A DNA stretch of 28,418 nt from a virus: positions 1 through 28,418 of IMG/VR virus record IMGVR_UViG_3300027749_000403. The stretch is one strand, 5' to 3'. Each line of letters begins with the position of its first letter. Position 1 is the stretch's first letter. The translations under genes were made by a program, and so were the position numbers. This document shows positions 3,576 to 15,175 of the stretch, piece by piece. The notes below the pieces were generated by a model. The model was not told the origin of the DNA. It saw only the letters and a list, made by a program, of their open reading frames with translations, and made no database searches.

Positions 3576-3709
3576 TGACAGAAAAAGAGATTAAAGAATT
3601 GCGTTTATTATTGCTAATGGTACAGCTAAAACAATCGGCTGAAAAAAGAGTAGGTAAACCGCTTGAGGCTAACGGAATGAAAAAAAAGGGAGTTCCAATC
3701 CATGACTAA
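3575..3709 (+). CDS. Small hypothetical protein between portal and protease (44 aa)
   Basis: A 44-codon frame starts at ATG 3575, sharing one base with the portal stop (TAATG), and ends 8 nt inside the protease gene. It reads MTEKEIKELRLLLLMVQLKQ, then a basic stretch with KKKG. The first half is predicted to be a Leu-rich amphipathic helix and the second half is positively charged. The portal and protease starts would otherwise be separated by an unusual 126-bp gap in a head operon with gaps of a few bases. Function is unknown. It could be a small head-assembly accessory, or its translation may simply deliver ribosomes to the protease start, whose GGGAG site lies inside it. Confidence 0.6.
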   Translation: MTEKEIKELRLLLLMVQLKQSAEKRVGKPLEANGMKKKGVPIHD

Positions 3710-4505
3710 AGATGTAAAATTTTATTATGAAAGCCAAGTTGCTTTGGGCGTTACAAATGATGAAGCAAATGGTATTAGTGGCGCAATTGAAGCTGTTTTA
3801 ACTACTTGGGGCGCACGAGAGGGCGCAGATGGTCGTAGGTTTAATTATCAAGCCGCACCATTTCAAGAATGGGCAAATGAATTTGCACAAACTGGCAAAC
3901 CATTACCAATGTACTTTCAACACAATGACGAATCATTACCAGTAGGCGAATGGTCAGCATTTGAATTTGATGATACAGGCATGACAGGTAAAGGTCGCAT
4001 TTTCACTAATACGACAGTAGGAAAAGATTTATACACAATCATGAAAGAAAGCCCAAACATGGTTGGCGGTGTTTCAGTCGGTGCTTATGCAGACGAATAT
4101 CAAATGGTTAATGCCAATAATGAGGTTATGAACCCATTAGACCCTGCTTATGATGAAGCCTATTTTCAGATTACCAAAGGTGGATTGCGTGAAGTTTCAG
4201 TTGTAATGAACCCTAACAATCCTATGGCGAACATTAACAAACTAGAAAATGTTTATCGTGAAGATGGTAGTATTAATTTAAAAGAAATAGAATCGGTCTT
4301 GCGTGATGCAGGACTTACAAAGTTGCAAGCAACCTCCGCAACTAGCATTTTCAATAAAGTAATTAAGTTGCGTGAAGTAACTGATGAAACTATTGAATCG
4401 CCACCAAGTTTGAGTGAATCAGATGCGGAGGTTAATCAAGCAATATTAGCCGCCTTAACAGAACGCGAATTGCTTAAAAAACTTACTAATCGTATTAAAG
4501 GATAA
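3702..4505 (+). CDS. Prohead maturation protease, HK97 (S78) family
   Basis: Serine protease packed inside the prohead that removes the N-terminal delta domain of the capsid protein and then itself, triggering maturation. The 267-residue sequence has the catalytic His in PMYFQHND (H74) and the catalytic Ser in VGGVSVGA (S125), both in family context. Residues 175-267 hold a REVSVVMNPNNPMA block and a helical KEIESVLRDAGLTKLQA segment of the type often found at the C-terminus of these proteases, possibly a scaffolding or targeting region. The start is fixed by GGGAG ten bases upstream. It sits between portal and capsid, as expected. Confidence 0.93.
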   Translation: MTKDVKFYYESQVALGVTNDEANGISGAIEAVLTTWGAREGADGRRFNYQAAPFQEWANEFAQTGKPLPMYFQHNDESLPVGEWSAFEFDDTGMTGKGRIFTNTTVGKDLYTIMKESPNMVGGVSVGAYADEYQMVNANNEVMNPLDPAYDEAYFQITKGGLREVSVVMNPNNPMANINKLENVYREDGSINLKEIESVLRDAGLTKLQATSATSIFNKVIKLREVTDETIESPPSLSESDAEVNQAILAALTERELLKKLTNRIKG

Positions 4506-4508
4506 ATC

Positions 4509-5858
4509 ATGTCTAAAGAAATTATGGAAAAGTTAGATTTAATTGAAGCGGAACAAGTTGCTAAAATTGAATTGGTAAAATCAGAAGTTAAGGCTGAATT
4601 TGATGCCACAGTTGCAACATTTGAAGAAAAAGTTGCTAACCTTGAAGCTAAAGTTGCTTCAATCAATGTAGCACCATCAATCATCAAAATTGAAAAATCA
4701 ATTCGTGGTGATGTAAACAAAATGGTTAAAGAACAACTATCAGCTTTTCACAAAGGCAATGGTCGTACTGAAAAAGAACTAAAAATGTTTGAAGATGAAT
4801 CACATTACGCAGAATATTTAAAAGAAGCGTCTGCTTTAACTGCTGGCGGTGATGGTAAGGGTGGTCGTACTGCTTATGACCCAACATTTGTTGCTTTGCG
4901 TTTGGCAAATCCTTTGCGTGGCGTGGCTCGTACTAATGCAACTGATGGTTCTTCATACCAATGGCGCGTTAAAACTGGTAATGCTGGCGCTCAATGGGGC
5001 TACACAGTTCAAAACAATGGTACTCCAACTACTGAAGACACAGTTATTTGGCAAGTGGTACTAAAAGATTTAAATGTTCAATTCCCAATCCGTACTGCGG
5101 CACTAGATGATGTTGATGGTTTAGAAGCTAATGTTGTTGATGATATGTTGGCAGAATTTGCACAAACTGAAGCACAATCAATGATTTCAAACAATGACCA
5201 ATCAGGTTCAGGTTCTTCAGTTTCTACTGGCGGTGCTGACGGTGTTCGTGGTTTAAATCAATACGGTGGTTCAAATGCTTCATTTGCTGGCGGTACTGTT
5301 TCAGTAGCGGCATTTGGTTCAACTGGTACAAGTTCATCAAGCGGTTTACATAGCCTTGCAACTTATGACCAAACAACATCAAATGTTAATACTGTTGGTG
5401 CTAATGCGATTACATACAAAGATGTAATTAATTTAATCCACAGCTTGCCACAACAATACTGGACTGCTGATGCTAAATTTATGATTAACCCAATCCTTTT
5501 ACAAGGTATTCGTGGTTTAGTAGATACAAATGGTCGCCCAATCTATGTTGATGGTTTGGCTCGTACTGATGGTATCGTTGGTCAATTATTAGGATTTGAT
5601 GTTATCGTTAATAAATACCTAGACACTCCATCACAACTTACAACAGGCGCGGCTGGTACAGTAAGCAAGTTCCCAATGTATTTTGCTGATTGGAATCGTT
5701 TTTACGGTATTGTTGACCGTTTAAATATGGTTATGCGTAGATATGACCAAACACTTCCGGGCTACATCACCTTTTTTGGTGAAAAGCGTTTGGCAACTTC
5801 TGTCCGTGACCCTAATGCTGGTGTTCGTTTCCGTTCAACAGCCACAGCCGCGGCTTAA
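4509..5858 (+). CDS. Major capsid protein, HK97 fold, with N-terminal delta domain
   Basis: Main shell subunit. Residues 1 to about 105 form a highly charged coiled coil (MEKLDLIEAEQVAK, VATFEEKVANLEAKVASI) typical of the delta/scaffold domain removed by the protease encoded just upstream. The body begins near TAGGDGKGGRT (about 111-121) with the N-arm, followed by EAQSM (about 218-222) and NNDQSGSGSS; the end carries EKRLATSVRDPNAGVRF, a usual C-terminal signature. Total 449 residues. It lies 3 bp after the protease with an AAAGGA site. Codon use is rich in GGT, GCT and CGT, fitting high expression. A terminator-like hairpin follows, then a paralog. Confidence 0.94.
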   Translation: MSKEIMEKLDLIEAEQVAKIELVKSEVKAEFDATVATFEEKVANLEAKVASINVAPSIIKIEKSIRGDVNKMVKEQLSAFHKGNGRTEKELKMFEDESHYAEYLKEASALTAGGDGKGGRTAYDPTFVALRLANPLRGVARTNATDGSSYQWRVKTGNAGAQWGYTVQNNGTPTTEDTVIWQVVLKDLNVQFPIRTAALDDVDGLEANVVDDMLAEFAQTEAQSMISNNDQSGSGSSVSTGGADGVRGLNQYGGSNASFAGGTVSVAAFGSTGTSSSSGLHSLATYDQTTSNVNTVGANAITYKDVINLIHSLPQQYWTADAKFMINPILLQGIRGLVDTNGRPIYVDGLARTDGIVGQLLGFDVIVNKYLDTPSQLTTGAAGTVSKFPMYFADWNRFYGIVDRLNMVMRRYDQTLPGYITFFGEKRLATSVRDPNAGVRFRSTATAAA

Positions 5859-5866
5859 TTAGGCTT

Positions 5867-5904
5867 AGGGGTGGTGGTTAATCTCCAACATCACCCCTTT
5901 TTTT
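5867..5904 (+). terminator. Rho-independent terminator/attenuator after the capsid gene
   Basis: A 10-bp stem pairs AGGGGTGGTG (5867-5876) with CATCACCCCT (5889-5898), with one G-T wobble and a 12-nt loop, followed directly by seven T residues (5898-5904). TTAGG at 5859-5863 and CCTAA at 5907-5911 could extend the base of the structure. It lies between the major capsid gene and its paralog, which are transcribed in the same direction, so it probably lowers rather than abolishes downstream expression. Confidence 0.85.
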
Positions 5905-5921
5905 AACCTAAAGGACACACC

Positions 5922-6971
5922 ATGAAAATATCAGAACAGGCAATTTTAGCAGGAATTAAAACCGCGTTAATTGATGGCGAAGCTACCATTAATATGTTTG
6001 AAAACGCAACAACAATAGATGAGGCTTCTGCGATTACTGGTTCAGGTAGTGGCAAAGGTGGTCGTACATATTTTGATGATACATTTGCAGTAGATAGATA
6101 CATCAATCCATTTCGTATGGGTAGCCGTCAAATTACTATAAGCGGTTCAGATGCTCAATTTGTAGCAAAAGTTGGTAATGCGGCAAATGCCACAAACCCT
6201 TGGCTATATGCTTTGACACCTAATAGCGGTACTCCGAACATTGATACAACGATTTGGCAATTGCCTACGCGAGTTATTGCGGCACAACTTCCTATTCGTA
6301 GTGCAGTTTTATCAGATGTAAATAATTTAGATGGTGCAATTGTTTCAGATTTAATGATGGAATTTAGTCAATTAGAAGCGCAATCAATGGCAACTAATAA
6401 TGATCAATCAGGTTCAACAACTACTGCAACTGGCGGTACTAATGGCTTGCGTGGTTTAACTTCATATTTAACAAGCAGTTCAGCATCATTTGGAACTAGC
6501 GGTACAGCGATTACAAATGGTATTCATACTATTAAATCTATTAGCCACAGCACTACGGTTCTTGATTACAATATGATGGCTGATTTAGTTAATGCGTTAC
6601 CAGCAGTTTATTGGGCAATGCCTACAACTGCATGGCATATTCACCCAACAATGATTAATGCTTTACGCCAATTAAAAAATACGGCTGGATTACCATTATT
6701 CTTAGAAGTTGGTGATGATGATGGTGCGGCAATTGGTTATGTATTTGGCTTCCCTGTTATTCCTAATCCTTACTTAGATGCTCCTGCTGTTGGCGCGATA
6801 CCATTAGTATTAGCTAACTGGGATAGATTTTTAACTATTGCTGATGTTGAAGAACTAACAATTAAACGCTTTGACCAAACACAGGCTGGTTCTATTGTTC
6901 TATATGCAGAAAAGCGTATGGTTTCAAGTGTTCGTGATTGCTTTGCTGGCGTGTATTTGAAAGGCATCTAA
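5922..6971 (+). CDS. Second capsid-like protein, paralog of the major capsid protein lacking the delta domain
   Basis: A 349-residue protein clearly homologous to the body of the preceding capsid protein. Shared landmarks in the same order are SGSGKGGRTYFDDTF against GDGKGGRTAYDPTF, TTIWQL against TVIWQV, PIRSAVLSDVNNLDGAIV against PIRTAALDDVDGLEANVV, EAQSMATNNDQSGS against EAQSMISNNDQSGS, and EKRMVSSVRDCFAGV against EKRLATSVRDPNAGV. Identity over the body looks like about 35-45 percent by eye. The GKGGRT motif is at about residue 44 instead of 116, so the coiled-coil delta domain is missing. AAAGGA precedes the start. It may be a minor shell or vertex subunit that co-assembles with the main capsid protein; that role is inferred. 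Confidence 0.88.
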   Translation: MKISEQAILAGIKTALIDGEATINMFENATTIDEASAITGSGSGKGGRTYFDDTFAVDRYINPFRMGSRQITISGSDAQFVAKVGNAANATNPWLYALTPNSGTPNIDTTIWQLPTRVIAAQLPIRSAVLSDVNNLDGAIVSDLMMEFSQLEAQSMATNNDQSGSTTTATGGTNGLRGLTSYLTSSSASFGTSGTAITNGIHTIKSISHSTTVLDYNMMADLVNALPAVYWAMPTTAWHIHPTMINALRQLKNTAGLPLFLEVGDDDGAAIGYVFGFPVIPNPYLDAPAVGAIPLVLANWDRFLTIADVEELTIKRFDQTQAGSIVLYAEKRMVSSVRDCFAGVYLKGI

Positions 6972-8423: not shown

Positions 8424-8927
8424 ATGGCATTACCAAATAAAGTATTAGCAGGTTTTAGTGCAACAATGTATGCACAACCAACAGCATCACCAACAGCATT
8501 AACGACAGCACAATTGGCTTTAGTTGCTAGTGTTTCACCTATTGCAGTTGTTGGCAATGTTATCAATATTGAAGCAATCCCTGCATTTGGTCAAGATGAT
8601 GCAGTTGCTTCTTTTGCCGTTGCTGGCTCTCGCCAATCAGATAAAATCCCAGTTCAATCAGCACCAACAAGCATGACAATCACAGCACCGTGGAATCCTA
8701 CTGATGCAACATTATTATTAATTCGTGGTGATGCGTATAGTGGTCAAGTTGATAGAACTTATGTTATTGCCGCAATTGATGGTGCAACTAGCCCTAACAT
8801 TATTTATTACGCATTTAATGGTCGTGCATCACAATTCCAAATTGATTCCGCACCAAGCGCAGAAGCTAAATGTACATTTACAATTCAACCGCGTGGCAAC
8901 CAATATGGTTGGTCTAACAACGCTTAA
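8424..8927 (+). CDS. Major tail (tail tube) protein, copy 1
   Basis: Tail-tube subunit, inferred from its position between the tail terminator and the tail chaperones and from its high-expression style. The 167 residues start MALPNKVLAGFSATMYAQP. From about 48 onward the beta-rich core reads NIEAIPAFGQDDAV, ASFAVAGSRQSDKIPVQ, MTITAPWNP, and it ends FTIQPRGNQYGWSNNA. A GAGG site lies nine bases upstream. The next gene is a close paralog, roughly 80 percent identical over the last 118 residues by eye. Which copy forms most of the tube cannot be told from sequence. Confidence 0.78.
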   Translation: MALPNKVLAGFSATMYAQPTASPTALTTAQLALVASVSPIAVVGNVINIEAIPAFGQDDAVASFAVAGSRQSDKIPVQSAPTSMTITAPWNPTDATLLLIRGDAYSGQVDRTYVIAAIDGATSPNIIYYAFNGRASQFQIDSAPSAEAKCTFTIQPRGNQYGWSNNA

Positions 8928-8940
8928 TTAGGGGAACAAT

Positions 8941-9459
8941 ATGGCATTGCCAAATAAAATTTTAGCTGGTTTTTCTGCATCATTTTGGATGCAATCAGGT
9001 GCAACACCAACTTCTTTTACAACTGCGAATCTTTCAGTATGGACAGCGCAAGTTGCAACAATCGTGGGTACAGTTGCTAATGGTACTGGTGCGGCTGGTT
9101 TAGCAGTAAATGTAGAAGCTATTCCTGCTTTTGGTCAAGATGATGCGGTGGCTTCTTTTGCTTTGGCTGGTAGCCGTCAATCTGACAAAATACCTGTCCA
9201 ATCTGCACCAACTTCAATGACGATTACTGCACCTTGGAATCCATCTGATACAGCATTACTTCAATTACGCGCTGATGCTTACAATGGTTTAACAGACAGA
9301 ACATTTGTAGTGGCGGCTTCTGATGCGGCAACTACAATTGCTTATGCTTTCAATGGTCGGGTTTCTCAATTCCAAGTTGATGCCGCACCTAGTGCTGAAG
9401 CAAAATGTACTTTTACCATTCATCCTCGTGGCAATCAATACGGCTGGTCAAATACTTAA
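8941..9459 (+). CDS. Major tail (tail tube) protein, copy 2 (tandem paralog)
   Basis: 172 residues, paralogous along the whole length to the preceding gene: MALPNKILAGFSASFWMQS at the start, then NVEAIPAFGQDDAV, GSRQSDKIPVQ and TITAPWNP, ending FTIHPRGNQYGWSNT. Differences concentrate in residues 15-55, where this copy has an insertion rich in Gly/Ala (VANGTGAAGLAVN). The DNA of the identical protein blocks differs at many third codon positions, so this is not a recent copy. AGGGGAA precedes the start, 13 bp after copy 1. A strong terminator follows. Both copies may be tube subunits, or one may be a decorated or terminal-ring variant. Confidence 0.78.
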   Translation: MALPNKILAGFSASFWMQSGATPTSFTTANLSVWTAQVATIVGTVANGTGAAGLAVNVEAIPAFGQDDAVASFALAGSRQSDKIPVQSAPTSMTITAPWNPSDTALLQLRADAYNGLTDRTFVVAASDAATTIAYAFNGRVSQFQVDAAPSAEAKCTFTIHPRGNQYGWSNT

Positions 9460-9465
9460 CACAAT

Positions 9466-9484
9466 AGCCCTACGGGGCTTTTTT
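9466..9484 (+). terminator. Rho-independent terminator after the tail-tube pair
   Basis: AGCCC (9466-9470) pairs with GGGCT (9475-9479) around a four-base TACG loop, followed by six T residues (9479-9484). The structure is compact and GC-rich in an AT-rich genome. It separates the abundant tail-tube genes from the less needed tail assembly genes, which suggests partial termination to set dosage. Confidence 0.88.
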
Positions 9485-14716: not shown

Positions 14717-15175
14717 ATGACAATACAATATACGACAGCACGAGTTTCAGATTGTTTTGATGAAGTTCTAACATTATTAGATGAACATTATCAAGAATTA
14801 TCAGTAACTAAGCATTACAAATTAAACCCTTATTATGATGTATATAAGGAAAATGAAAAGAATGGAAAATGCCGAGTAATTTTATGTAAAAACGATAATG
14901 AAATTATTGGGTATATTGTATTTTTTATTGATGTAAATTTGCACTATAAAGATTGTTTGTTGGCTACTGAAGATATTTATTATTTAAAACCTGAATATCG
15001 CAAAGGCAGAACAGGAATCAAAATGTTTAAATTTGCGGAAGAATATCTAAAATCATTAGGTGTTAATATGATTAAATATTCTACAAAGGTTCATTCTGAT
15101 AATTCTAAATTATTTGAATATCTTGGTTGTTCGTTTACAGAAAAAGTCTATATTAAAACAATAAAGGAATTATAA
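14717..15175 (+). CDS. GNAT-family N-acetyltransferase in the tail tip cluster
   Basis: A 152-residue GNAT-fold enzyme predicted to move an acetyl group from acetyl-CoA to an amine. Visible: strand VILCKNDNEIIGYIVFF (about 54-70), strand ATEDIYYLKPEYR, the acetyl-CoA loop YRKGRTG (about 94-100, a variant of Q/RxxGxG/A) followed by the IKMFKFAEEYLKSLG helix, and the final HSDNSKLFEYLGCSFTEKVYIKTI region. It sits between the hub protein and the tip protein with 2-bp and 0-bp gaps, but has no clear ribosome binding site and looks more AT-rich than its neighbours, so it may be a later insertion. The substrate is unknown; phage tail proteins or a host product are both possible. Confidence 0.85.
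   Translation: MTIQYTTARVSDCFDEVLTLLDEHYQELSVTKHYKLNPYYDVYKENEKNGKCRVILCKNDNEIIGYIVFFIDVNLHYKDCLLATEDIYYLKPEYRKGRTGIKMFKFAEEYLKSLGVNMIKYSTKVHSDNSKLFEYLGCSFTEKVYIKTIKEL

Follow-up and report, generated by a model that had tools for sequence, protein, structure and literature searches.

A second HK97-type capsid protein without a delta domain, kept beside the major capsid protein in a group of siphophages, as a candidate vertex subunit

What does a tailed phage do with two HK97-type capsid genes that lie side by side, the second of which encodes no delta domain? The question is raised by a viral sequence of 28,418 nucleotides (IMG/VR record IMGVR_UViG_3300027749_000403), the whole of which is referred to here as the window. 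It encodes the small and large terminase subunits, the portal, an S78 prohead protease, two capsid proteins designated MCP1 and MCP2, a connector, two tail-tube-like genes, the tape measure and tail genes, the tail module also containing an acetyltransferase-like gene (14717-15175; PHROG E 6e-17), and is part of a siphophage-type genome. The genes of immediate concern are the following.

3702-4505, plus strand: prohead maturation protease (Peptidase_S78; Pfam PF04586, E 2e-9; PHROG head maturation protease)
4509-5858, plus strand: MCP1, 449 aa, the major capsid protein, which carries a delta domain (Pfam PF05065, E 5e-29; TIGR01554, E 3e-32)
5922-6971, plus strand: MCP2, 349 aa, the second of the two capsid proteins, with HK97 fold but no delta domain (Pfam PF05065, E 1e-15; 37% identity to MCP1; HK97-fold model)

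The two capsid genes adjoin on the same strand with a gap of 63 bases, and the coordinates given for both open reading frames in an initial sequence-only reading of this DNA are correct. The four landmarks which that reading had assigned to both proteins (GKGGRT, EAQSM, NNDQSGS and EKRxxxSVRD) are all found in MCP1 and in MCP2; the first of them is no conserved signature, appearing as GxGGRT in most relatives. A BLASTP comparison aligns the two proteins with 134 identities over 361 positions and an E-value of 3e-69, which rules out a chance resemblance. MCP1 scores above the curated thresholds set for the HK97 capsid families, and so does MCP2, with 58.3 bits against a cut-off of 24.2 for PF05065 and 63.4 against 27.5 for the NCBIfam family major_cap_HK97 (TIGR01554; E 2e-17). 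MCP1 and MCP2 are paralogues, both of them HK97-type capsid proteins.

The paralogues differ in the segments that precede the capsid core.

4509-4826, plus strand: MCP1 delta domain or propeptide (residues 1-106), which begins with a helix and has a putative cleavage site LKE/ASA at its end (E106 invariant in 39 sequences)
5922-6023, plus strand: MCP2 short leader, residues 1-34, with a putative cleavage site IDE/ASA at its end (E34 invariant in 41 sequences)

The N-terminal helix of MCP1 spans residues 3-52 in a low-confidence model, and the MCP2 leader is modelled as helical at residues 3-18. A site of the form [LIVMF]xE/[ASQ], the slash marking the putative cut, occurs in both proteins in 100 of 100 pairs of relatives, just ahead of the glycine-rich stretch that opens the capsid core. 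We infer that the protease of this phage cleaves there, and the S78 prohead protease is expected to act on MCP1 and MCP2 alike; the proteases of T4, phiKZ and SPN3US likewise cut after Glu (PMC5694885). Over the 100 pairs, the predicted propeptide of MCP1 measures 99-117 residues and that of MCP2 23-34, so that MCP2 has nothing of the length of a delta domain. The earlier statement that MCP2 is without an N-terminal coiled coil or delta domain holds for the delta domain, and it has to be amended in that a short helical leader, ending in the putative protease site of MCP1, has been kept. Loss of the delta domain with retention of the site would fit a protein that relies on MCP1 for its assembly.

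Compatibility of the predicted MCP2 structure with the HK97 fold had been named beforehand as a check. A model built with 35 relatives (pLDDT 66.7, pTM 0.69) proves compatible, matching 310 solved chains in the PDB at E <= 0.001 with a TM-score by target of about 0.7, foremost the capsids of the Rhodobacter gene transfer agent and of HK97. The MCP1 model is poor (pLDDT 47) and was used solely for the N-terminal helix, and a detailed comparison of the two folds is therefore not possible; judged from sequence, the family assignment of MCP1 is secure. Besides the difference in leaders, MCP2 lacks about 30 residues of loops that MCP1 possesses, all of which would map, by way of the MCP2 model, to the A domain. 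The A domain is the part of a capsid protein closest to the capsomer axis. In T4, where it likewise lies near that axis, mutations that bypass gp24 are located in it (PMC9958956). Residues conserved differently between the MCP1 and MCP2 families are few and scattered, and the A-domain difference is therefore suggestive only. The HK97 fold by itself does not discriminate between a pentamer and a hexamer role.

The best solved sequence relative of both proteins, and the best fold match of MCP2, is the capsid protein Rcc01687 of the Rhodobacter capsulatus gene transfer agent (6tb9, 6tba). This kinship lends some colour to the idea that MCP2 builds an alternative particle, either a smaller head or a shell resembling a gene transfer agent, or that it replaces MCP1 under certain conditions. 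We regard such a role as decidedly improbable, given that MCP2 has no delta domain and no separate scaffold gene was found in the head module, that the full set of virion genes is present, and that MCP1 and MCP2 always occur together in the loci sampled.

The distribution of the pair was followed by scanning IMG/VR with MCP2 and with two MCP1 alignments, and bacterial and archaeal genomes in one further scan. At least 208 loci in these sources carry both genes, some contigs occurring more than once; they include the cultured Methylophilaceae phage P19250A (KX815270) and contigs binned into proteobacterial MAGs. In P19250A, gp5 and gp6 form an orthologous pair in the same gene order (61% and 58% identity, respectively); gp5 is annotated as a gene transfer agent capsid protein and gp6 as a 'hypothetical protein', and our literature search found no study of gp6. 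Among the matches listed, five loci have MCP1 only and nine MCP2 only; in all of them the contig ends beside the gene, save for one MCP2 fragment at a contig end beside unrelated sequence (L145), which was treated as a probable chimera. No complete locus without MCP2 is present among the matches listed. Venkman (MT375522), reported as a marine relative of P19250A in one genus-level cluster with it (PMC8163748), was considered as a further relative and rejected: neither capsid profile matches it, and it has one major capsid gene together with a scaffold gene.

A second check named in advance, whether MCP2 is missing or broken in close relatives, shows the pair kept across the sampled relatives, with an interrupted MCP2 frame in three loci (L040, L119 and L137). 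These three offer some support to the suggestion in the sequence-only reading that MCP2 might be a relic, in this case of a recent tandem duplication. Each interruption occurs in one metagenome assembly, and one of them is a single-base difference from a near-identical contig. Every complete locus among the matches listed has MCP2; by contrast, a tandem of major-tail-protein-like genes in the same phages has often shrunk to a single gene (among relatives, 46 have the pair and 66 one copy), so that this duplicate is not always kept. In the window this tail-protein tandem occupies 8424-8927 and 8941-9459, its members are 68% identical, and a terminator-like hairpin follows at 9466-9479.

The age of the duplication and the selection on its products also speak against a relic. 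Across 100 complete, mutually distinct pairs, every MCP1 sequence groups in one clade and every MCP2 sequence in another. When the tree was rooted with nine single-copy prophage capsids, found among 300 related bacterial genomes that were sampled, support was 100 for the monophyly of MCP1 plus MCP2, 99 for MCP1 and 100 for MCP2. Since each family is monophyletic relative to the outgroup, a single duplication before the radiation of the group is indicated; on this tree, it postdates the split from the single-copy prophage capsids and predates the radiation of the sampled group as a whole. A long N-terminal region is present in the outgroup capsids too, and the long leader is therefore likely to be ancestral and to have been lost by MCP2. 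MCP1 has a median dN/dS of 0.14 and MCP2 one of 0.16, or 0.12 and 0.19 when both are taken over identical genome pairs; non-synonymous change in MCP2 is about 1.5 times faster than in MCP1, and MCP2 is under purifying selection. Its universal presence in the sampled relatives, low dN/dS and old origin refute a relic, to which we assign next to no probability.

A further element of the locus, lying between the two genes, bears on how much of each protein would be made.

5867-5904, plus strand: intrinsic-terminator-like hairpin followed by a U-run (arms 5867-5876 and 5889-5898, then a T-run)

A hairpin with at least five G-C pairs in its stem stands directly 3' of the MCP1 stop codon in all 84 distinct intergenic sequences, and 78 of these have a U-rich tail in addition. 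Among the 84 sequences the stems take 67 distinct forms, their loops including UUCG, UACG, GAAA and GCAA; the median folding z-score is -2.64, compared with values around 0 for controls 5' of MCP1, at the end of the MCP2 gene about its stop codon, and at random positions. The copy in the window (-19.3 kcal/mol, z -1.96) is weaker, and it is missed by a strict terminator-consensus scan because its loop is 12 nt long. RNAalifold, applied to the intergenic regions after alignment with MAFFT, found no structure because the stems are misaligned; they were accordingly compared through the fold of each individual sequence, a procedure in which pairing is given, in which the diversity of stems alone is informative and which involves no formal covariation test. 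In 13 sequences scanned at length, terminator-like sites recur only behind MCP1 and, in part of these sequences, also behind the tail-tube gene. A terminator-like hairpin after MCP1 predicts less MCP2 than MCP1, and since both genes have a similar ribosome-binding site (AAAGGA), the predicted difference in dose would be transcriptional. We read the hairpin as an attenuator that would hold MCP2 below MCP1; it could, alternatively, be an RNA-stability or processing element.

A capsid protein with a long leader and a paralogue with a short one, predicted to be scarcer and to be processed by the same protease, recall gp23 and gp24 of T4. There, gp23 forms hexamers and loses a propeptide of 65 residues, gp24 forms pentamers and has a propeptide of 10 residues, gp24 occupies 11 vertices, and the two arose by duplication (PMC9958956). 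Both systems comprise HK97-fold paralogues of which the minor one, by prediction MCP2 in our case, has the shorter propeptide, and a protease that cuts after Glu, putatively so in our case. The T4 proteins are only about 20% identical (PMC9958956), as compared with about 37% for MCP1 and MCP2, and they build a T4-type head, whereas the present pair belongs to an HK97/GTA-type capsid with a delta domain, in which a vertex place for MCP2 is predicted. T4 capsid proteins were absent from the profile matches in a PDB search at E <= 0.01; as far as the profiles indicate, MCP2 is not a member of the T4 gp24 family, but as a vertex protein it would work like gp24.

By this parallel, MCP2 would most likely form pentamers, and on balance we lean towards the view that it is a processed minor shell subunit derived from an ancient duplication, most likely the pentameric vertex protein. 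MCP1, with its delta domain of about 106 residues as a built-in scaffold, would most likely make the hexamers; MCP2, with a leader of about 30 residues, would co-assemble with it, be cut at the matching site by the same prohead protease, and fill the pentamers at the 11 non-portal vertices in about 55 copies, as gp24 does beside gp23, with the hairpin after MCP1 keeping its transcription lower. Three features, a short leader of the processed type, the conserved hairpin and the shorter A-domain loops, favour the original suggestion that MCP2 sits at the vertices or forms some minor part of the capsid; we infer the presence of MCP2 in the virion, its cleavage, its low copy number and its location, the vertex being the most likely place by analogy with T4 and from the indirect evidence on dose.

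The main rival to the pentamer reading is a minor place elsewhere in the shell, where MCP2 might contribute to some hexamers or to the portal ring and tune head size, closure or portal attachment. It fits almost as well, in that retention, cleavage site and the evidence for low dose suit any minor position in the shell and the fold alone does not separate pentamer from hexamer. Specialisation for the vertex is, by contrast, documented in T4, and we know of no tailed phage in which a paralogue serves as a minor non-vertex shell subunit; we therefore consider such a place a lesser, though appreciable, possibility. Against a two-protein vertex model in general, in many phages one protein fills both pentamers and hexamers, so that a second is not generally required. 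Capsids of this type that are made of one protein, such as HK97 gp5, share with our pair the fold, the delta domain (here on MCP1) and an adjoining S78-type prohead protease, but differ in using one protein where the window has two genes, one of them without a delta domain. Likewise, a single major capsid protein and no second paralogue is listed for RcGTA, whose capsid is the nearest relative with a solved structure. Phage Milano was considered as another two-protein shell and discarded, as its pentamers and hexamers are made of one protein (PMC10491603). A search for second or duplicated major capsid genes returned nothing relevant in the open-licence literature, and the pair is apparently undescribed.

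Several relatives carry variants of the locus. In one clade (L150 and L154 to L160, L155, L156, L157, L158 and L159 included), about 70 extra residues that match a tail-fibre PHROG are inserted in the E-loop region of MCP2, and MCP1 is without them. This insert bears on whether MCP2 could act outside the mature virion, as an assembly chaperone, nucleation factor or internal decoy. The predicted low dose would also suit such a catalytic or nucleating role; the invariant maturation-type site and the full HK97 fold argue against it, as does the tail-fibre-like insert, confined to MCP2 in a single clade, which suits exposure on the particle, and we hold the role to be unlikely. In another clade (L047:5679-7010, L053:5927-7258, L054:5922-7253, L055 and L161), a phrog_2859 domain of about 100 residues is fused in frame before MCP2; from the reading frame, either the fusion would be made or translation would start at an internal ATG. 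Elsewhere, endonuclease-like genes lie between MCP1 and MCP2: an HNH gene at L216:2078-2419 (Pfam E 4e-5), the same reading frame recurring at L214:6320-6700, and a gene at L132:5895-6526 with a weak match, below the curated cut-off, to group I intron endonucleases.

Among the cases known to us, T4-type phages are the example of a vertex-specialised capsid paralogue. We tentatively propose that widespread small aquatic siphophages may have evolved a vertex protein independently of T4, by duplicating an HK97-type gene, removing its scaffold and setting the ratio of the products with a conserved attenuator, and that some lineages may then have mounted additional domains on the vertex copy and not on MCP1, through the E-loop insert and the N-terminal fusion. 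If true, this would be a second, independent origin of a vertex paralogue, in small HK97-type phages, and would offer a simple system for the choice between pentamer and hexamer, with paralogues still 37% identical and one of them without a delta domain. It would also ask whether a subunit without a scaffold can be recruited by one that bears it, a question that the existence of the cultured phage P19250A on IMCC19250 makes directly testable, and it would supply a proposed function for a gene that a widespread group of phages carries and that is annotated as hypothetical.
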